This document shows, piece after piece, positions 3,864 through 64,000 of a stretch of 64,000 nt of DNA. Positions within the stretch are counted from its first letter, which is position 1, and every line of letters starts with the position of its first letter. A program made the translations under genes and the position numbers. Origin of the DNA: Solibacteraceae bacterium (GTDB taxonomy: Bacteria > Acidobacteriota > Terriglobia > Bryobacterales > Bryobacteraceae); assembly GCA_021324015.1 (NCBI GenBank), contig JAJPJX010000157.1:1-64000 (forward strand), given 5' to 3'. The notes beneath the pieces were generated by a model. That model made no database searches. It was given only the letters and a program-made list of their open reading frames with translations, and was not told the DNA's origin.

Positions 3864-4634
3864 TCAGGTTTCCTGCAGCTTGCGCGTGAGGCGCCGCACC
3901 AGGGCGCGGGGCGCCAGGCGCACGGATTCGACGCCCACCCGGTTCATGACACCGGGCACCACCAGCACCTGGCCGCGCATCATTCCGCGATAGCCGGCCT
4001 CGGCCGCCTGGCGGGCACTCATCATGCCTAGCAGCTTATCGCGCACCAGGCGGGTGTTTTCAATGCGCGCGCGTTTCTGGAACTCGGTGGCGGTGGGGCC
4101 GGGGCACAGGGTGGTCACCGTTACGCCAGTGCCGCGCAGTTCCTCCGCGATCGCTTCGGTGAAGGAAAGCACGAAAGCCTTGCTGGCATAGTAGATGGCC
4201 ATCAGGGGGCCGGGCTGGAAGGCGGCGGTGGAGGCCACGTTCAGGACGCGGCCGGCGCGGCGCTCCAGCATGCCGGGCAGAAAGAGCTTGGTGAGATGCA
4301 CCAGCGACGTCACGTTGACCTGGATCATGTCGAGTTCCTGGCGCAGGTCGTTGGAGGCGAATGGCCCGCAGAGGCCGAACCCGGCGTTGTTCACCAGGCA
4401 ATCGGCGGCGCGCACCTGTTCGAAAAGGAACCAGGGGGCCTGGGGCTGGCTGAGGTCCGCCGGAATGACGCGCACGGCGGCGTGCGAGAGAGACTGCATT
4501 TCGGCGGCGACTCTTTCGAGGCGCGCGGCATCGCGGGCCACCAGCACGAGCTCATATCCGTCCCCCGCGAACAGCCGGGCGAGCTCGTAGCCGATGCCGG
4601 CAGTGGCCCCGGTAATAAGTGCGGTCTGAGACAT
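3864..4634 (-). CDS. Short-chain dehydrogenase/reductase
   Basis: A 256-residue classical SDR. The NAD(P)-binding glycine motif TGATAGIG is at residues 8-15, the NNAG motif at 82-85, the catalytic Ser at about 135, and YYASK at 148-152 supplies Tyr and Lys. The pattern resembles the DltE/YqjQ-like subgroup of broad-specificity SDRs, but the substrate cannot be told. It is followed closely by the sugar kinase gene and is divergent from the MgtC-like gene at 4756. Confidence 0.85.
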   Translation of the reverse strand: MSQTALITGATAGIGYELARLFAGDGYELVLVARDAARLERVAAEMQSLSHAAVRVIPADLSQPQAPWFLFEQVRAADCLVNNAGFGLCGPFASNDLRQELDMIQVNVTSLVHLTKLFLPGMLERRAGRVLNVASTAAFQPGPLMAIYYASKAFVLSFTEAIAEELRGTGVTVTTLCPGPTATEFQKRARIENTRLVRDKLLGMMSARQAAEAGYRGMMRGQVLVVPGVMNRVGVESVRLAPRALVRRLTRKLQET

Positions 4635-10857: not shown

Positions 10858-12033
10858 ATGCCGTTCCATCCAGTGCGCATATTTTCAGCCGCCGGGCTGG
10901 CGGCGCTGCTCGTTCTGGCGGTATGCGAGGGCGGCGCGCGGGAACCCGCCATGGTCCACCTGGCGCGGGTACCCGCCGGAGGTTTGCAACCGCAGGCCGC
11001 GCTGGACCGGCAGGGTGTCCTGCACCTGATCTACCTGGCTGGGGATCCCGCCGCCGCGGACATTTACTATGTGCGCAAGGGGCCGCACGACGCGGACTTC
11101 TCCGTCCCGCTCCGGGTGAACAGCCAGTCCGGCAGCGCCATTGCGTTGGGCACCATCCGCGGCGCGCAGATCGCCATTGGCCGGGCAGGCCGCGTGCACG
11201 TGGCCTGGAATGGCTCGCGGACGGCGCAACCGCAAGGCCCCGGGGGGGCCACGCCCATGTTGTACAGCCGGCTGAATGAGAGCGGAACAGCCTTCGAACC
11301 GCAGCGCAACGTGATCCAGGCGGCGTACGGACTGGACGGCGGAGGATCGCTGGCCGCGGACTCCAAAGGCGGCGTGTTCGTCTTCTGGCACGCGCCCGTG
11401 CCGGGCACGCAGGGCGAAACGAACCGCGCGGTGTGGATCGCGCGCTCCTATGACGATGGCAGCACGTTCGCCCGCGAGACGCGTGCGTGGTCCGAGCCGA
11501 CCGGCGCCTGCGGATGCTGCGGCATGCGCGCGATGGCCGGAGAGGACGGCACGCTCTATGCGCTCTATCGGGCGGCCACCGGAGGGGTGGACCGCGACAC
11601 CGTGCTGCTGGTCTCGCGCGACCGCGGCACAACTTTCCGCGGCACGCGCGTGCATCCCTGGAAGCTGAACGCCTGCCCGATGAGCAGCGCCTTTCTCGCG
11701 CCAGTGAAGGGCGGTGCGCTCGCGGCCTGGGAAACCGAAAAGCAGGTGTACTTCGCCCGGGCGGACGAGCGCACGCTGCGGGTGACCACGCCGGTGGCGG
11801 CGCCCGGCGAAGGCAGCCGCAAACATCCGGTGATGGCGGTGAACGCGGCGGGCGACACCATCCTGGTGTGGACAGAGGGCACCGGGTGGAAGAAGGGCGG
11901 CTCGCTGCGCTGGCAGGTTTTCGACTCTTCCGGGGCGACCAAGGCCGAGTCCGGCGTGGCCCCGGGTGTGTCTGCCTGGAGCCTGGCCGCGGTCTATCCG
12001 CGTCCGGACGGCGGCTTCACGATTCTCTACTGA
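10858..12033 (+). CDS. Secreted sialidase-like beta-propeller protein
   Basis: About 391 residues with a signal peptide (MPFHPVRIFSAAGLAALLVLAVC; the Cys could make it a lipoprotein). Repeated blade motifs such as SYDDGSTF and SRDRGTTF are Asp-box-like, so the fold is a BNR/sialidase propeller. A Cys-x-Cys-Cys cluster (GACGCCGM, near residue 217) and a further Cys (LNACPMSS) are unusual for a sialidase and could bind metal. The ATG at 10858 is chosen because GGAGAGGG lies just upstream. It follows a metal-dependent regulator and is convergent with the PPC-domain gene. Confidence 0.7.
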   Translation: MPFHPVRIFSAAGLAALLVLAVCEGGAREPAMVHLARVPAGGLQPQAALDRQGVLHLIYLAGDPAAADIYYVRKGPHDADFSVPLRVNSQSGSAIALGTIRGAQIAIGRAGRVHVAWNGSRTAQPQGPGGATPMLYSRLNESGTAFEPQRNVIQAAYGLDGGGSLAADSKGGVFVFWHAPVPGTQGETNRAVWIARSYDDGSTFARETRAWSEPTGACGCCGMRAMAGEDGTLYALYRAATGGVDRDTVLLVSRDRGTTFRGTRVHPWKLNACPMSSAFLAPVKGGALAAWETEKQVYFARADERTLRVTTPVAAPGEGSRKHPVMAVNAAGDTILVWTEGTGWKKGGSLRWQVFDSSGATKAESGVAPGVSAWSLAAVYPRPDGGFTILY

Positions 12034-53414: not shown

Positions 53415-53504
<90 letters not shown>

Positions 53505-53590
53505 CTTTCTTTTCAAGCATTTACAACAACATAGGCTTCCGGCTTGGGCAATTTTGGGTAATGCCCGTGTTAGGATCGGGGCGGTAAGAC

Positions 53591-54847
53591 ATGGCCCTGA
53601 ACCTTTACCGCAGGCACGGTTCCCATTGCGTTGGTGGCCGCGCGTTGCACGACATGACCTACGAAGCAGACGAACTGCGCCGTAGTTGGAAACGCTGCTT
53701 GTGCCCCATCTATGCGTCGGGGACGCTGGGTTTCCGGTTCAAGCGGAAGAATACCGAGTGTGCCACTTGGGATGAAGCCAAGGCGCTGGTGCGCACGTGG
53801 CAGGACGCTGCTTCGTGGGAAGGCCCGGTCACCGCGCCACCGGCCCCTGAACCCCCGGCCCCGAATCCTGATGCTGGACGCGTCACGATTGCCGACGCAA
53901 TCACCGCGTTCATCACCGTCCGGGAAGCGTCCAAGATCGCGCCGTCCACACTCCGCAAGTACAAGACCTTCACCAAGCAGTTGCGCGCCTACGCCGATGA
54001 CAAGGGCTATGTGATGCTGGACCAGTTCACGTCTGCGGACGTTGACGTGTTCTACTCCAACTGGAAGCTGGGAGCACGAGCCAAGGGCAAAGCGCTGGGC
54101 ACGCTGCGGAGTTTCTTCCGGTTCTGCGCCAAACGGAAATGGATAGCTGTTGACGCGACGGACCCGAAGTCCATCGGGCCGGTTTCCAGCGACCTGAAGC
54201 CCCCGCTGGGTGCCAACCGCGTAGCCAATAAGGTCCCCTTCACTGATGACGAACTTCAGCGCATCCTGGACGCCTGTGACCGGCTGGGCGCAATCGAGTG
54301 GAACAACGGCAGCAAGACGGGCGTGTGGACCGGTGAAGACGTGAAGGACTTCATCTGGCTGCTGACGTACACCGGCCTTCGCATTTCTGACGCTGGCTTG
54401 TTCCGCATGGATCGGCTGCACGGTAACGAAGTCTTCCTGCGGGCCAAGAAGAACGGTGGCGACGTGTTCACCTGGATACCGGATTGGCTGGCCACCCGGC
54501 TGACTGACCGCGCCAAGCGACACGGGCCGCGTCCGTTCATCACCGGAGAATCAGACCGGCTGGAAACAGTCACCGACCTGTGGCGCAGAAGGCTGAACAA
54601 GGTGTTTGAACTGGCTGGAAAATTCAAAGAGACACCCACGCCCCACCGGTTCCGCCATACGTTTGCGCGAATCCTCTTGCAGCGGGGCGTCCCTGTGGCC
54701 GATGTCGCGGACCTGATGGGCGATGATGAAGACACTGTGCGCGAACACTATGCCCGCTGGGTGCCAGAGAGACAGGCGCGGCTGACCAACATCCTACGGG
54801 ATGCTTTCACGGATAAGCCACGGCCAAAGCTGTTGGCGATTCGGTAA
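53591..54847 (+). CDS. int: Tyrosine recombinase/integrase
   Basis: A 418-residue integrase. The N-terminal part (HCVGGRALH and WKRCLCPIYASGTLGF) carries Cys/His residues of a zinc-finger-like arm-binding region common in acidobacterial integrases. A SAM-like core-binding domain follows (about 100-190), then the catalytic domain with Arg in TYTGLRISDAG, HRFRHTFARILLQRG (H and R), and the nucleophile Tyr in REHYARW. It presumably integrates the element at tRNA-Ser. GGGGCGG lies upstream of the ATG, and a 10-bp stem-loop follows the stop. Confidence 0.93.
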   Translation: MALNLYRRHGSHCVGGRALHDMTYEADELRRSWKRCLCPIYASGTLGFRFKRKNTECATWDEAKALVRTWQDAASWEGPVTAPPAPEPPAPNPDAGRVTIADAITAFITVREASKIAPSTLRKYKTFTKQLRAYADDKGYVMLDQFTSADVDVFYSNWKLGARAKGKALGTLRSFFRFCAKRKWIAVDATDPKSIGPVSSDLKPPLGANRVANKVPFTDDELQRILDACDRLGAIEWNNGSKTGVWTGEDVKDFIWLLTYTGLRISDAGLFRMDRLHGNEVFLRAKKNGGDVFTWIPDWLATRLTDRAKRHGPRPFITGESDRLETVTDLWRRRLNKVFELAGKFKETPTPHRFRHTFARILLQRGVPVADVADLMGDDEDTVREHYARWVPERQARLTNILRDAFTDKPRPKLLAIR

Positions 54848-55717: not shown

Positions 55718-56188
55718 CGTGCCCGCAGCATAATTTCCCATTTCTCCCACCGGCCCCGATTTCATTTTGTACTTCTCGTCCTGCCAACCAGTTACCTTCA
55801 GCTTGAAGCATGTGAACGCTGGCCCGGCAAGATGGGCGCTGGGCGGGACTTTCTTCAGCAGCAACGAAGCGAGTAGCACAGCCGCGCAAGTGGCAAGGCG
55901 CAGCAGCCCTTTGAACTGTCTGTGAAGCCAGCAGCTTACATGCCGCAATGAAGTGTGTGACGGAAGCCAGCGTTTCCCCTACGGGACCCGTTCACATATT
56001 TCGTTTCGGAATGCCTCACGCGAAAGTGACACGTAAGTTCATGCAACCACCCGTTTGTCAAAACTGGCTTGCATTACCGCGCGTGATTCAAGCTGACAGG
56101 CGCTGATGGGGGCCTGTGTAGAATGGGGTTGGCGGGATTCACACCCCCGCTTCCCTCACGTGCAGTAAAAACCCAAGGCAATTTCACC
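55718..56188. promoter_or_regulatory. Divergent control region of the element
   Basis: The 471 bp between two divergent HTH genes contain no convincing gene. This is where a lysogeny-like switch would be expected. Visible features are the motif TAGAAT at 56119-56124 (possible -10), and a short hairpin GCGGG...CCCGC at about 56131-56152 just upstream of the AlpA-like start. Operators could not be defined by eye. Confidence 0.4.
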
Positions 56189-56392
56189 ATGACGCGTTTA
56201 CACGCACCAAGTGCGCAGCCTGCCTACCTGCGCCAGCGGGACGCTGCTGCGTTTCTTTCGGTCAGCGTGGCCCTGTTACAGAAATGGCACCGTCTGGGCA
56301 CAGGTCCCCGCCGTGTGCTGTTGGGTGGCCGGGTGCCGGTATATTTCATTCCCGACCTTCACAGATGGGCGCAGGAACAGGCCGCGCAATGA
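56189..56392 (+). CDS. AlpA/excisionase-like HTH protein
   Basis: A 67-residue MerR-like (HTH_17) protein: PAYLRQRDAAAFLSVSVALLQKWHRLGTGPRRVLLGGRVPVYFIPDLHRW. The helix-turn-helix plus wing and Gly-rich turn are typical of AlpA/Xis factors that direct excision or activate element genes. The frame stays open to 56123 upstream; MTRLHAP is chosen because the domain starts soon after. The next gene overlaps by ATGA. Confidence 0.8.
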   Translation: MTRLHAPSAQPAYLRQRDAAAFLSVSVALLQKWHRLGTGPRRVLLGGRVPVYFIPDLHRWAQEQAAQ

Positions 56393-58181: not shown

Positions 58182-58331
58182 AAGTAAGTAAATCTCAACA
58201 CTTGTGCCAACAGGATAACGGACAGGTGCATACAGCCGGGTCCCCGGCATAAGACAACCCACTCGTTTGACTGGGATAATTTCACGTGATGTGTCACTGA
58301 AACCGCCTAAATGGGCGAGAGAGACAGACCG

Positions 58332-58901
58332 ATGTTACAGGAAACAACACTTCAGGAAGCCCGCAGGTTGTTATTTATTGCGATGAGAGAGATACCGCAG
58401 TTGACCCCCTTCGGAATCGGCGTGCATTACGCCTATCATCGCAATGGACGTGAACACGTGTGCCGGGAAATTCAGAGGCAACAGGCAGAACTGGAGACGG
58501 ACCACGCGTTGCGCATGATTGCCTTCTGCGCCGATTGGATCAAGACACACCCTACGGGATTCAAACCGCATCGCACTTCCTACTACTCCAAGCACCTTGT
58601 GGAACAGTGGCGCAGGGATGCCGGTGACCCGGACCCCTACGTCCACAACGGCTGCTTCATTGCGGCTGCGGTGGGCCTTGGCCTTAACTTCAGGATCGAC
58701 GGCCCCAATGCCGTCTTCAGATTCCCAACGCTGCGCCAGCTTATCGACAGGGCGCTGTGTGCTGACGGCCAGCGGCTGCGCGGAAACAAGATCGTGCAAA
58801 TCTACGATGAAGTTGGACCCATGATGTTGCCGTGTGAACCGCGCGTGATTGAAGATGACGTTGACTTGGAAACGCTGGCGCGCGAACTGGGAGTGCTGTG
58901 A
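58332..58901 (+). CDS. Element protein upstream of the replication gene, unknown
   Basis: A 189-residue soluble protein (MLQETTLQEARRLLFIAMREI). No known domain is recognised; conserved-looking tracts are GVHYAYHRNGREH and DPDPYVHNGCFIAAAVGLGLNF. ATG 58332 has a weak GAGAGA upstream; ATG 58311 would add 7 residues. The prim-pol gene begins directly after its stop, so it may be a replication accessory factor. An 8-bp palindrome TCACGTGA lies at 58282-58289 in front of it. Confidence 0.6.
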   Translation: MLQETTLQEARRLLFIAMREIPQLTPFGIGVHYAYHRNGREHVCREIQRQQAELETDHALRMIAFCADWIKTHPTGFKPHRTSYYSKHLVEQWRRDAGDPDPYVHNGCFIAAAVGLGLNFRIDGPNAVFRFPTLRQLIDRALCADGQRLRGNKIVQIYDEVGPMMLPCEPRVIEDDVDLETLARELGVL

Positions 58902-61214
58902 ATGAATCGGGATATCGCAATTCAATACGCGCGGAACGGCTGGTCTGTCATTCCGCTGCACAGCCCGCAGGGTTCTGGCTGTTCTTGCGGTAGCGCTGAC
59001 TGCGGCAAGCCGGGCAAGCATGCGCGCGTCCGCGAATGGCAGAAGGCGTCATGTGACCCGGACACTGTTGCCGCATGGTGGCAGCAATGGCCGGATTCAA
59101 ACATCGGCCTGCGCTTGGACAATCTGGTGGTGCTGGACGTGGACGGAACGGAAGGCGCTGACTCACTGGCTGCTCTCGAACAACAGCACGGGCCGCTGGT
59201 CGCACGCGCGCAACAGCGCAGCGGTTCAGGTGGCTGGCACTACGTGTTTGAAGCCGCGGAAGGCGTCACCAAGCATCTGAAGTTCAGGCCCGGCCTTGAC
59301 CTGCTGACTGGGGCCGGGTGCTACATCGGGGTGGACCCATCGCAGCATGCCAGCGGTGGAAACTACCGGTGGGTGGATACGGAAAGCCCGGCCAACACTC
59401 CCCGGCCCCAGCTTCCGCTGACGGTTCCACCGGCTTGGCTGCTGGAAGTGGCCAAGACAAAGGCCCGGACCCCAACTGAACGCGTACCCGTCGAACGTCT
59501 CATGACCTTGGCACTCGAAAAGATCGGGGCCGGGTCAGGGCGCAACGATGCGGGCCTGTTCTTCTACGGCCAGATGCGCGACAACGGGTACACTAAGGAT
59601 GAATCGTACCTGACTCTCCGGGAGTGGGTCACCCGCGCCAATGAAGCCGCACCAGCGCTGGCCAAGTACACGCTTTCGGAAGCGCGGGCCACCTTGAACA
59701 GCGCCTATAAGCGGGAACCCCGCGACCCGTGGACCGAACCCGGCAAGCGGACCAATACCGCAAAGCTGCTGGAAGACCTGTCTGAAGACATCGAACTGTT
59801 CCACTCGCCCAAGGGTGACGCATTCGCGGTGGTCCCCGTCAATGACCACGTGGAATGCTGGGCCGTCGATTCCAAGACGTTCAAAGGCATTCTGACCAGC
59901 CGGTATTTCAAAAAGCAGAATGCCACACCGGGCAGGGACGCGCTGCAAAGTTTCGTTGACCTGCTGTGCGCACGCGCTGCTTATGACGGCCCTGAAAAGC
60001 AAACACACCTGCGATTCGCACACGTTGACGGGCGCGCGTATTTGGACCTTGGCAACGATTCTTGGCAGGTCGTTGAAATCGACGCTGATGGCTGGCGCAT
60101 CCTGCCCCAGTCCCCGGTGTGTTTCAAGCGCGTGGCCGGTATGAAGCCGCTGCCGATTCCTGAACGCGGCGGGTCACTGACCGCGCTGCGCAGATTCATC
60201 AACGCGCAGGATGACCGGCATTTCGTCTTGATGGCGTCATGGCTGGTTGGGACGTTTCTGCCGAAAGGCGCGTTTCCGGTCTTGTTGATTCAAGGTGTGC
60301 ATGGTTCCGCGAAGTCGGGGACCACGGCCATCCTGCGGAATCTGGTTGACCCGGTGACCGTGCCCCTAAGCGCGTTGCCGCGCGATGAACGGGAACTGGC
60401 CATCACAGCCAACAACAGTGGCGTCATCGCTTTTGACAACGTATCCGGTGTTCATCAATGGCTGAGCGATGCGTTCTGCCGAATCGCCACTGGCGCGGGC
60501 TTCCGCACGCGGACCTTGCACACCGACGCGGATGAACAGCTATTCGAGACGCGCAGGCCGCTGCTGCTGAACGGCATTGACGATATCGCATCCCGCGCGG
60601 ACCTGCTGGACCGTGGCATTGGAGTGTATCTCAGACGCATAGCGGACACACAGCGGAAGACGGAAGATGAGATTCAATCGGAATTCGCTTCCGCACAAGG
60701 TGCCATCTTGGGCGCGCTGCTGACCGCAGTGTCCACGGGGCTGCGGAACTTGCCCAGCACCAAGTTGTCCAGCCTTCCGCGCATGGCTGACTTCGCTAAG
60801 TGGGTTTCAGCGTGTGAACCGGCCCTGCCATGGGAACCGGGGGCCTTCATGCGGACGTATCTGGAAATGCGCCAGAAGACAGCGGAAATGTCCGTGGAAA
60901 ATGACATGGTGGCCCAGGCCCTGCTGCGCATGATTCTGACCACGCGTTCCAGCGTCTGGGAAGGCACCAGTGAAGAACTGCTGCTGGAGTTGAACCAGCG
61001 GGTGCCCTTCGATAGACGGGACTTCACAGCGTGGCCCAAGACGCCTGCGTCACTGGGCCGCTGGCTGCGCCGCGCGGAACCCTGCTTGCTCGCCGTGGGC
61101 GTCACCTTGAGCGCACGGCGTGGTGGGAAGGGCCGCACGCGGTTGCTGCGTGTCGAATACAGCAACCCGGATCAAGGGACCCTGCTTCCGTGGCCCGAAC
61201 AGGACGCGGCATAG
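58902..61214 (+). CDS. Bifunctional prim-pol and helicase-type replication protein
   Basis: A 770-residue replication protein. The N-terminus is a prim-pol domain: GWSVIPL near residue 14, a Cys/His cluster CSCGSADCGKPGKH (28-41), the catalytic DxD in VVLDVDG near 78, and GGWHYVF near 111. A primase-C-like helical region follows (about 200-270). The C-terminal half is an ATPase with a Walker A-like loop GVHGSAKSGTT (465-475) and a Walker B-like VIAFDNVSG (about 508-516). Such proteins start autonomous replication of satellites and plasmids. The iteron block begins 1 base after its stop. Confidence 0.85.
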   Translation: MNRDIAIQYARNGWSVIPLHSPQGSGCSCGSADCGKPGKHARVREWQKASCDPDTVAAWWQQWPDSNIGLRLDNLVVLDVDGTEGADSLAALEQQHGPLVARAQQRSGSGGWHYVFEAAEGVTKHLKFRPGLDLLTGAGCYIGVDPSQHASGGNYRWVDTESPANTPRPQLPLTVPPAWLLEVAKTKARTPTERVPVERLMTLALEKIGAGSGRNDAGLFFYGQMRDNGYTKDESYLTLREWVTRANEAAPALAKYTLSEARATLNSAYKREPRDPWTEPGKRTNTAKLLEDLSEDIELFHSPKGDAFAVVPVNDHVECWAVDSKTFKGILTSRYFKKQNATPGRDALQSFVDLLCARAAYDGPEKQTHLRFAHVDGRAYLDLGNDSWQVVEIDADGWRILPQSPVCFKRVAGMKPLPIPERGGSLTALRRFINAQDDRHFVLMASWLVGTFLPKGAFPVLLIQGVHGSAKSGTTAILRNLVDPVTVPLSALPRDERELAITANNSGVIAFDNVSGVHQWLSDAFCRIATGAGFRTRTLHTDADEQLFETRRPLLLNGIDDIASRADLLDRGIGVYLRRIADTQRKTEDEIQSEFASAQGAILGALLTAVSTGLRNLPSTKLSSLPRMADFAKWVSACEPALPWEPGAFMRTYLEMRQKTAEMSVENDMVAQALLRMILTTRSSVWEGTSEELLLELNQRVPFDRRDFTAWPKTPASLGRWLRRAEPCLLAVGVTLSARRGGKGRTRLLRVEYSNPDQGTLLPWPEQDAA

Positions 61215-61215
61215 G

Positions 61216-61556
61216 CGGACAGAGCGGACAGCAGCGGACAGGAACGAAAACGGGCTTGCTGTCCGCCATTTCTGCTGGAAACGCAGGGGTTAGGTGTTAG
61301 GCGGACAGAGCGGACAGCAATTTCTATGTTTTCCCTGGAAAAGAATATATATAAAGGGAAACAGTGTATAGAAACGCCACGCAGACAGGACCTTTGCGAC
61401 TTTCTAAATGCCACCGGGAAATAGCTGCAAAATGCTGTCCGCTCTGTCCGCTCTGTCCGCCAACTTTTTAACACCAACTGTGTCAAGCTGATAGGTCATG
61501 CGTCTGGCGGACAGCAGGGCGGACAGTAACTCTGCGTGCTGCCCGCTTCCTGTCCG
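61216..61556. repeat. Iteron block: putative replication origin
   Basis: Twelve copies of CGGACAG lie in 341 bp. On the plus strand they start at 61216, 61225, 61235, 61302, 61311, 61508 and 61520; in inverse orientation (CTGTCCG) they start at 61259, 61435, 61444, 61453 and 61550. Most neighbours are 9 or 10 bp apart. The two clusters flank an AT-rich stretch. The location directly behind the replication gene and the two-cluster layout match P4- and SaPI-type origins recognised by their own primase-helicase. Confidence 0.7.
61330..61361. repeat. AT-rich inverted repeat (possible unwinding element)
   Basis: TTTCCCT (61330-61336) and AGGGAAA (61355-61361) surround an AT-rich core containing AATATATATAA. 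It sits in the middle between the two iteron clusters, where a DNA-unwinding element would be expected. Confidence 0.5.
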
Positions 61557-61987
61557 CCGTGCGTGGGTCACGGACTTGACACGCTGAATCGGACGTAAGT
61601 TACTCAATCGTCGGCGCTGTCAGAAAAGTGGCGCTAAAGTGGCGTTGCCGCAAAGCTGTGCTATTAGCGCACTTAGCAGACAGGCCCCAAGGCACGCGTG
61701 GTCAGTCACACGTACTGCATTAAGGTTCCATTAAAACCAGGAGTCACCAAGCGAACGGCTGGCGATCCGCTGAACACGAAGTACTTGACAACGCCAAGGC
61801 ATGCGCTGGCGTTAGCGCGCGGCAAAGGACCTGACCGTCCAATTACCCGCCGCATAAACCGACCCGCGCGCTGCCAGCCGTGGCCGTAGAAACGCTTTTC
61901 GGGGCCGGGGGATGCTGTGGTGTCACCCGCTGCCCCTTCACGCGCTGTAGCCCGTCTGGGCCGCAGCAACACACATGAGAGTGACGT
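61557..61987. other. Gene-free stretch behind the iterons
   Basis: About 430 bp with no convincing gene; a 63-codon plus-strand frame at 61698-61889 has no recognisable features. It contains a near-direct repeat AAGTGGCGCT/AAGTGGCGTT at about 61626-61646 and could hold the promoter of the terminase-like gene or further origin sequence. Confidence 0.3.
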
Positions 61988-62407
61988 ATGTCAAAAACAA
62001 AAACGGGGCGTCCTGTTGGGCGTCCGAAGGGTTCCATTTCAAAGCGCAGGGCCGTGGCACACGAAGTCTTGGCCCAGTTGGAAGCAGAACTGGGCAGGGC
62101 CGTGAATCCGCTGGAAGGGCTGCTGCGGATTGGCGCTGACGTGAATCAGCCCATGGCCATCAGGGTTCAGTGCATGTCTGAATCTCTTCCGTACCTGTTT
62201 CCAAAACTGCAAAGCCAGACGGTGGCGCTGACCGGCCCCACTGGGGACGGCCCGGTGGAAGTGGCCACGTTGGATGTCAGCGCGGTCTTGGCCAATCCCC
62301 AGCTTGCCGCAGCCGCGCAGGAACTGGCACTGATGGTGATTGAACAGGAAGCGCTGGCTGAAGGCCAGCCGCAGCCCCGTTTAATCGACCAGCCGCAGTA
62401 CAAGTAA
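61988..62407 (+). CDS. Terminase-small-subunit-like DNA-binding protein
   Basis: A 139-residue protein starting MSKTKTGRPVGRPKGSISKR, an AT-hook-like GRP repeat, followed by helices (VAHEVLAQLEAELG, NPLEGLLRIGADVN) and a Pro/Gln-rich tail. The GRPKGS start and helical follow-up resemble small terminase subunits and DUF5681-like phage proteins. No large terminase is seen downstream in the window. Identification is tentative; a plain DNA-binding protein is equally possible. Confidence 0.5.
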   Translation: MSKTKTGRPVGRPKGSISKRRAVAHEVLAQLEAELGRAVNPLEGLLRIGADVNQPMAIRVQCMSESLPYLFPKLQSQTVALTGPTGDGPVEVATLDVSAVLANPQLAAAAQELALMVIEQEALAEGQPQPRLIDQPQYK

Positions 62408-62483: not shown

Positions 62484-63104
62484 GTGAAAACAGAGTTTCG
62501 CCGTTCTGATTTGATCGCGCTGGCGCTGCCAGCTTGTGCGCACTGCGGTGGCAGTGGCCTGCGCAGCGCTGAAGGGGTCTGCCTGTGTGTTGAGCGTTCC
62601 GTATTCCGCATTGTGATGCAACGCTACCGTGACATCACCGAAGGGGAAGAGTTCATTGCGCCCCTGTCACTCGAAAACGCGGGCACTGGTCCCAAGGGGC
62701 TGGTGCGCGTTGGCCGTCCCCATGAAGAATTCCTTGCGGACGTGTGCCTGATAGCCAAGCGCGCGCTGGACCCGCTGGAACACTCCGTCTTCCGGTTTCA
62801 CTTCCTGCTGGGCGCTGATTGGAAGCTGTGCTGCAAGCGGCTGAAGATTGACCGGGGAACCTGCTTTCACGCCTTCTACCGCGTGGAAGCCAAGCTGGGC
62901 CGTGCATTCCGCACCACGCAGCCGTACCCGCTGTATCCGCTGGCCGGGTACTTCTATGGCGTTGTTCGCGGACGCAAGACAGCACCCTGCGTGCCCGATG
63001 ATGAACTAGCCCAGCCGGTGGCGTTGGTCCCACCGGTCATGTCGAAACAAGAACGGCTGGCGTACATCCGCGAAAGGTTGGCGGAAGGCCCGCTGGCCGC
63101 ATAG
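62484..63104 (+). CDS. Zinc-ribbon/HTH-like phage-type protein
   Basis: A 206-residue protein. CAHCGGSGLRSAEGVCLC (18-35) is a Cys4 zinc knuckle of the DnaJ-like CxxCxGxG kind. The central part HSVFRFHFLLGADWKLCCKRLKIDRGTCFHAFYRVEAKLG looks like a sigma-4/HTH-type helical domain. Related proteins are widespread in phage-like islands without known function; control of late transcription is a reasonable guess. The dif-like site starts 4 bases after its stop. Confidence 0.6.
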   Translation: MKTEFRRSDLIALALPACAHCGGSGLRSAEGVCLCVERSVFRIVMQRYRDITEGEEFIAPLSLENAGTGPKGLVRVGRPHEEFLADVCLIAKRALDPLEHSVFRFHFLLGADWKLCCKRLKIDRGTCFHAFYRVEAKLGRAFRTTQPYPLYPLAGYFYGVVRGRKTAPCVPDDELAQPVALVPPVMSKQERLAYIRERLAEGPLAA

Positions 63105-63107
63105 ACA

Positions 63108-63135
63108 ACACATGATAATTCGACTTATCATGTGT
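63108..63135. other. 28-bp dif-like recombinase core site
   Basis: Two perfect 11-bp inverted arms, ACACATGATAA (63108-63118) and TTATCATGTGT (63125-63135), are separated by 6 bp, TTCGAC. Arm length, spacer length and the ATAA/TTAT inner ends are those of XerCD sites such as dif and cer. It lies 2 bases before the ATG of a Xer-like recombinase. It could be that recombinase's crossover site, its operator, or both. Confidence 0.65.
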
Positions 63136-63137
63136 CT

Positions 63138-64000
63138 ATGGGTAAGCAAATTGTGGCTGTTTCGCTCGGCCTTCAGCAGCAAGCGGACACCGATGAACAG
63201 GCCATCAAGCTGTGGTTGCACGGCAAGGCAGCGCACAGCCAGCGGGCTTACCGGCTGGACATTGACCGGTTCCGCGCTGCCGTGCGCAGGCCGCTGCCAG
63301 CGGTCACGCTGGATGACCTGCAACAGTTCGCGGACTCGCTGGCCGGGCTTGCCCCTGCCTCACAGAAGCGCATCCTTGCGAGTGTGAAAAGCCTGCTGGC
63401 GTTCTGCTTGAAGATTGGATACTGCCAGTTCAACGTGGGGGCCGCGTTGACCGTGCGCAAGGCCAAGAACACGCTGGCTGAACGCATCCTGCCCCATGAA
63501 GACGTGGCGCGCATCATCGAACGTGAAGACGGCCCCCGCAACCACGCCATGCTGCGGTTCCTGTATGAAACCGGTTGCCGGGTGTCAGAACTTTGCAGTG
63601 CAAAGTGGCGTGACATTCAGCCGCGTGACGCAGGGCTGGCGCAGGTAACGGTGTTCGGGAAGGGGGACAAGACGCGCCACGTCCTAATCTCGAAACGGCT
63701 GTACAAGGAACTGGTGCGCCTGCACGCGGATGCCGGTGACAATGCCCCCGTGTTCCCCAGCAAGACCGGCAAGGCACTGGACCAGCCAGCCGTCTTCCGC
63801 GTCATGCAGGCCGCTGCGCAGCGGGCCGGTATCGAACAGCCCGTATCGCCCCATTGGTTCCGCCACGCGGCAGCGTCACACGCGCTGGACAACGGGTGTC
63901 CCATCGGGCTGGTGAAGGAACAACTGGGCCACGCCAGCCTTGAGACAACCAGCGTGTACGTACATGCCCGGCCCACGGATGGCTTGTTCAAGTACCTGCG
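63138..64000 (+). CDS. XerC/XerD-like tyrosine recombinase (runs off the window)
   Basis: The frame is open from ATG 63138 to the window end (287 codons), so it is nearly complete for a Xer-type protein of about 300 residues. The core-binding domain covers about 20-105. All catalytic residues are visible: Arg in YETGCRVSELCSAKW, Lys in FGKGDKTRHV, H and R in HWFRHAAASHAL, His in QLGHASLETT, and the nucleophile Tyr in TSVYVHARP. It is shorter than and unlike the tRNA-proximal integrase. The dif-like site just upstream suggests multimer or cointegrate resolution, or a second integration route. Confidence 0.88.
   Translation, partial: MGKQIVAVSLGLQQQADTDEQAIKLWLHGKAAHSQRAYRLDIDRFRAAVRRPLPAVTLDDLQQFADSLAGLAPASQKRILASVKSLLAFCLKIGYCQFNVGAALTVRKAKNTLAERILPHEDVARIIEREDGPRNHAMLRFLYETGCRVSELCSAKWRDIQPRDAGLAQVTVFGKGDKTRHVLISKRLYKELVRLHADAGDNAPVFPSKTGKALDQPAVFRVMQAAAQRAGIEQPVSPHWFRHAAASHALDNGCPIGLVKEQLGHASLETTSVYVHARPTDGLFKYL

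Follow-up and report, generated by a model that had tools for sequence, protein, structure and literature searches.

In P4, a satellite phage of E. coli, the winged helix of the alpha protein binds the P4 repeats, after which alpha unwinds and primes (PMC4234260). In PICI and SaPI elements, the origin lies immediately 3' of the pri-rep gene and consists of two iteron sets that flank an AT-rich region (PMC6092414). Contact with the downstream repeats is made by a C-terminal domain in both SaPI Rep and Cch2 (PMC7581432). Plasmid pWTY27 encodes RepA beside the prim-pol RepB, and RepA binds adjacent iterons (PMC3583192).

The sequence considered here (the window) is the whole 64-kb stretch of DNA that was analysed, from a Solibacteraceae bacterium. 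Near its end lies a repeat block that is very likely a P4/PICI-like theta replication origin, belonging to a tRNA-integrated element and served by that element's own initiator, for which no binding, excision, or replication data exist. A preliminary description, made without database searches, had reported 12 copies of CGGACAG in both orientations, mostly one helical turn apart, around an AT-rich inverted repeat. The count and orientations held: 12 exact copies lie at 61216-61556. Every one extends to the 8-mer GCGGACAG, of which 12 exact copies, in both orientations, fall within 61215-61557 and none elsewhere in the window. Dinucleotide shuffles predict CGGACAG about 12 times per 64-kb window, or about 0.07 times per 341 bp, against the 12 observed in 341 bp; this clustering is far from chance.

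The first GCGGACAG copy begins immediately after the TAG stop codon of a gene for a 770-aa protein, and a single 343-bp block holds all 12 copies, including a 17-bp tandem pair found nowhere else in the genome. The left cluster (61215..61317, + strand, with P4-ori-like geometry) has copies at 61215+, 61224+, 61234+, 61259-, 61301+, and 61310+; the right cluster (61435..61557, - strand) has copies at 61435-, 61444-, 61453-, 61507+, 61519+, and 61550-. Successive centres are 9, 10, 25, 42, 9, 125, 9, 9, 54, 12, and 31 bp apart, and so the claim of helical-turn spacing held in part: the close steps are mostly 9 bp, slightly less than a turn, and such intervals account for 6 of the 11. Between the clusters lies the AT-rich core (61314..61375, no strand assigned), the probable melting site. 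No other 60 bp of the window are as rich in AT (70%, against a mean of 35%) as the stretch that starts here, at 61314-61316, and so this part of the description also held; the inverted repeats themselves are short and nested (TTTCTAT/ATAGAAA and TTTCCCT/AGGGAAA), accompanied by a TATATAT palindrome. The contig has no exact DnaA box, TTATNCACA or TTGTCCACA, from 53 to 67 kb, which sets the element apart from DnaA-dependent iteron plasmids, with DnaA boxes at their origins.

The block sits in a 13.3-kb element integrated at a tRNA-Ser(CGA) gene (53415..53504, + strand); about 2.8 kb of the element extends past the window end. The 3' end of the tRNA gene holds the 21-bp attL core CGAATCCCACCCTCACCGCCA (53484-53504, + strand), repeated exactly at contig 66752-66772, outside the window. 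A 17-mer, GCAATTTTGGGTAATGC (53548..53564, + strand), recurs as an inner repeat near the other end (contig 66654-66670) and is a candidate integrase arm site. Beside attL lies a gene for a tyrosine integrase (53591..54847, + strand; PF00589) with its catalytic motifs present, followed by one for a small helix-turn-helix protein (56123..56392, + strand) with a weak match to the excisionase/regulator group phrog_66. An ORF without known family (58311..58901, + strand) abuts the primase-helicase gene (58902..61214, + strand), with no intervening nucleotide. Behind the block are a phrog_15261-like ORF (61988..62407, + strand) and the gene for a second tyrosine recombinase (63132..64000 in the window, + strand, ending at contig 64004), which is 290 residues long, XerC/D-sized, and has recognisable catalytic motifs; by inference, it could be a dimer resolvase for the replicating circle. 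For two ORFs downstream of the block, no close relatives were found among phage records. Between the block and the second recombinase gene, a 206-aa ORF (62484-63104) has no confident family and by eye resembles prophage late-gene regulators. A search for RNA elements found the tRNA alone. The scanned ORFs of the element match no named packaging or interference family (terS, capsid morphogenesis), and several belong to no known family. The att sites, the two recombinases, and the replicon together suggest an integrated mobile island able to excise, as the preliminary description had proposed; this remains an inference, without excision data. The element is known from one draft genome, in which no circle was seen.

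Residues 6-168 of the 770-aa protein form a Prim-Pol domain (PF09250), whereas the remainder matches no Pfam family. Modelling predicts an SF3/D5-like AAA+ helicase at about residues 283-680 and a C-terminal winged helix at about 685-753. AlphaFold2 models about residues 283-757 with confidence, ending in the winged helix; the Prim-Pol part of the model is poor (pLDDT below 50 for residues 59-193) and was left out of fold interpretation. Among PDB entries, SaPI5 Rep (7om0) matches the helicase and winged helix best, with Z 19.4 and 9% identity across 377 residues; the alignment extends to model residue 742. Further matches include D5/E5 helicases, MPXV E5 among them (Z about 17), AsfvPrimPol (15), SCCmec Cch (14.1), SaPI PriRep1 with dsDNA (13.6), and SaPIbov1 Rep (12.5). 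The predicted fold thus resembles D5/SF3-like primase-helicases, whereas the Pfam sequence profiles do not detect it: neither D5_N, VapE, nor DUF3987 matches the helicase part, and 33 aligned relatives yielded a single marginal VapE-like match. A search of the sequences of solved structures returned no usable relative, only P-loop matches.

Comparison with the known systems reveals a consistent plan with local departures. In P4, too, the iterons are short, face both ways, and follow one another at 9-11 bp, and the initiator is a primase-helicase-winged helix protein (PMC4234260). However, P4 divides its origin into two separated parts, ori and crr, whereas the window has one block; P4 ori contains type 2 repeats; and alpha carries a Toprim primase (PMC4234260) rather than Prim-Pol. 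The PICI/SaPI elements share the position of the origin directly 3' of the initiator gene, the two iteron sets, and the AT-rich core; an initiator (SaPI5 Rep, PriRep1, SaPIbov1 Rep) that joins an AEP primase to a helicase and a C-terminal DNA-binding domain, the latter in the window by predicted fold; and an integrase with a specific att site (here tRNA-Ser, with its 21-bp repeat). Nevertheless, identity to PICI/SaPI Rep is just 8-9% in the fold alignment, the window helicase has no Pfam family, and no packaging gene was identified among the scanned ORFs of its element.

Other systems are similar in part. In the SCCmec Cch2/Cch modules, the helicase likewise binds direct repeats behind its own gene through a C-terminal domain (PMC7581432; binding in the window is inferred), but a single repeat region holds the three iterons, and the polymerase/primase is separate (PMC7581432). 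The Streptomyces theta plasmids pFP11 and pWTY27 pair a Rep gene with adjacent iterons bound by Rep (PMC3583192), but they keep primase and helicase in separate genes and leave several hundred bases between the gene and the first iterons. In pFP11, a prim-pol gene lies beside HS337_RS00140, which encodes a helicase homologue and has GTGCGTCCC repeats beyond it; the identity of HS337_RS00140 with the published RepA is unverified. The crenarchaeal plasmid pRN1 (ORF904) has the same order of AEP prim-pol, SF3 helicase, and winged helix, with the origin directly downstream, but that origin is a 100-nt stem-loop without iterons (PMC4234260). Because the same domain order goes with iterons in the window, the present locus is relevant to a published proposal of stem-loop use by prim-pol/SF3/winged-helix initiators (PMC4234260).

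The similarity to P4 extends to the arrangement of sites. In the P4 record, used as a control, crr begins 46 bp after the alpha stop codon. The P4 type 1 iteron CTGTTCACC and the window word on that strand, CTGTCCGCC, agree at 7 of 9 bases. The P4 ori reads <10<11<22>43<10<, and the left six iterons of the window read <9<10<25>42<9<, with identical orientations. When the window's own spacings and orientations are put in random order, a fraction of 1.5e-4 of the shuffles matches P4 ori equally well (3e-4 in another run). The same geometry occurs in a sister phage, L184 (<9<10<21>46<9<; shuffle 5e-5), in a Chloroflexota plasmid, L077 (<8<10<22>44<8<; 3e-4), and at L010, L186, L239, and L187 (0.0014-0.0026); the P4 crr pattern occurs at L015 (2e-4) and L014 (9e-4). 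A blind scan of 2.03 Mb for P4 ori geometry, with any repeated word allowed, returned seven loci: P4, the window, L077, L010, L193, L239, and L243. All six other than P4 lie just behind a helicase gene of the window protein's family.

Two caveats apply. The window match was noticed before it was tested there, and so the other loci and the blind scan constitute the fairer test; and the matching loci are partly related to one another, in scanned DNA enriched for such helicase genes. P4 alpha has no BLASTP similarity to the window protein, and geometry shared with P4 across phyla in the absence of such similarity is new here, and the surprising part. Together with the single-block layout and the coupling of a Prim-Pol domain to a Pfam-dark helicase, it is what makes this origin novel. 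A bolder reading is that the P4 layout represents an old grammar of origins held in common: whatever the phylum, and whether in phages, plasmids, or islands, about six initiator sites would retain their order, orientation, and gaps. What varies would be the iteron word, the fused primase (Prim-Pol or Toprim), and the greater part of the initiator's sequence. The present evidence leaves this reading as likely to be wrong as right. If true, the origins of Pfam-dark initiators could be found by geometry alone.

Relatives were collected from genomes, viral contigs, plasmids, and phages with the helicase as bait, and the DNA following the conserved C-terminus was examined for the number of copies of a repeated 7-mer. 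In a first set, 21 of 44 loci had significant clusters, a count that 0 of 200 shuffles reached; in a second, 17 of 77 did (0 of 100 shuffles), and of 1694 other windows only 1 attained counts this high. By this method, about half of the first set had no cluster, as was true of most viral contigs at about 33% identity (L199-L249). The loci with clusters come from bacteria, archaea, plasmids, and phages, and their words are related but different. The closest relatives, L184 and L185, are 50% identical to the window protein over residues 6-763 and are followed by eight CCGTCAC copies in two clusters. In L185, the ORF after the origin is homologous to the ORF at 61988-62407 (31%, E 2e-12) and precedes a portal gene; the window and a phage-like contig therefore have a replication module in common. 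Plasmids with clusters include those of Chlorohelix (L077) and Streptomyces (L081), the archaeal pH6Ac (L074), and pFP11 (L078/L082); members of the window's own phylum and class with clusters are L047, L048, L050, and L056 in the first set and L173 and L175 in the second. Some relatives of the helicase carry other primases in front, with Toprim or DUF3854 domains. Plasmids, phages, and islands that share hardly any other genes have clusters after the helicase gene. These data indicate that this Pfam-absent helicase family provides the replication initiator in plasmids, phages, and islands of bacteria and archaea, a role inferred without binding or replication data.

The preliminary description held that an absence of conserved iterons in sister elements with the same gene would refute the origin. 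That did not come to pass: sisters have clusters at the same place, with differing words. Nearly every sequence test run (position, fold, clusters in sisters, P4 geometry) supported its proposal of a P4/SaPI plan. Its suggestion of a new origin family for Acidobacteriota proved too narrow, because the origin type occurs in many phyla, plasmids, and phages.

The words vary, nearly always containing GTC (TCGTCCGCA, CTGTCCGCC, CCGTCAC, AGCGTCA, and others); CTGTCCGCC, the window's word, is also that of a Rhodobacteraceae relative. The idea that the base after GTC tracks the initiator tree was rejected. This base changes at least six times among 18 labelled rows, and the iteron word therefore switches often. 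The relatives do not consistently have an AT-rich stretch; tested one by one, most gave no significant result. A GC-skew switch was sought at the iterons of L074, L075, L076, and pFP11; skew extremes do not coincide with the blocks, and GC skew therefore gives no support in small plasmids.

Several relatives have features of their own. At L010, L012, L014, L015, L016, L017, L030, L047, L048, and L050, the initiator frame stays open through the iterons, which would make the repeats a translated extra tail; in the window, a stop codon precedes them. L014 and L016, contigs of one bin (NPL-UPA2 GPS119), encode near-identical recognition helices and have the words CGTCGGC and CGTCCAA, respectively; their winged helices differ mainly in the wing, possibly as if diverging to avoid incompatibility. 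At L201 and L202, two clusters of GGTGAAC, the P4 type 1 repeat, lie behind a helicase gene of the window protein's family. In the Methanothrix plasmid pH6Ac (L074), CGCCTCC repeats at 4331-4595 fall in the 3' part of the gene for the initiator homologue; these repeats are, by inference, likely to be that plasmid's origin.

How might the window origin function? The evidence read from sequence comprises the position of the block, its repeats and AT-rich core, the att repeats, the recombinases, the predicted helicase and winged-helix fold, and the recurrence of both the plan and the P4 geometry. The following steps are inferred: excision, binding, melting, helicase loading, priming, and autonomous copying. 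The integrase would excise the element from its tRNA-Ser site as a circle. By analogy with SaPI Rep and P4 alpha, the winged-helix C-terminus of the primase-helicase would bind the GCGGACAG iterons that flank the AT-rich core, where monomers 9 bp apart may seed helicase rings on either side. The core would then melt, and the SF3/D5-like helicase would unwind the DNA. Presumably, the N-terminal Prim-Pol domain or a host primase supplies the primer, and a host polymerase carries out theta replication of the excised circle.

Alternative readings of the block must be weighed. Iterated binding sites can be operators, and plasmid iterons often double as autoregulatory sites. The block might then be no origin, but the operator array of a regulator for the primase-helicase gene or for the genes behind it. 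This is very unlikely: the block follows the primase-helicase gene instead of preceding it, its geometry is that of the known P4 origin, and comparable clusters follow the helicase gene in replicons that otherwise hardly share genes. Some plasmid centromeres, too, are arrays of short repeats, and the block could represent a parC/parS-like partition site. However, no ParA-, ParB-, or ParR-like gene was found among the scanned ORFs of the element, and the AT-rich core, like the association with a winged-helix helicase, fits an origin; this reading is likewise highly improbable.

A less remote possibility, still unlikely, is that the block is a former origin in a decayed, non-mobile remnant. No circle was seen, the genome is a draft, and the right att site has just the 21-bp core in common with the tRNA. 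Against this, 12 of 12 iterons are letter-perfect; the 770-aa frame and both recombinase frames are open, the latter with catalytic motifs; the tRNA is intact; and the two att cores are identical. Finally, chance or a simple tandem repeat is all but excluded. Such an array does exist in genome G051, where contig C92 has seven GCGGACAGG copies in strict tandem with no helicase relative nearby, but the window copies are unequally spaced, point both ways, and form no tandem array; elements built on other words repeat the same gaps.

For hosts with few genetic tools, the P4/PICI-like origin reading offers an origin and an initiator of mobile elements that are both defined and open to test. Moreover, it links the P4 and PICI origins to the window's helicase family through spacing rules rather than sequence. 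This raises a testable question: does geometry, and not the iteron word, position the helicase rings?

The window's word and its spacing also appear at other loci. The G051 array (C92:18371-18432, L163), from another genome of the phylum, has a 9-bp period and adjoins an ORF with a resemblance, by eye, to REP-associated transposases. On the viral contig L109, eighteen GCGGACAG copies fall within 400 bp (11607-12000), with a gene for a terminase large subunit about 1.6 kb away; the part of the contig examined revealed no primase-helicase. The iteron-pair pattern proved unsuitable for finding elements. Most of its matches across 80 viral contigs and 396 genomes were isolated or unrelated, and none lay beside the window's helicase family except in the window's own genome. 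Some, however, sit right behind primase-helicase genes of the DUF3987, VapE, D5_N, or Toprim/AAA_25 type. In viral contigs L083/L111 (with near copies L097, L120, L129, and L131), L089, L098, and L146, GCGGACAG recurs at 9-bp steps directly behind primase-helicases of these other families, a possible hint that the word is common beyond the window protein's own family.
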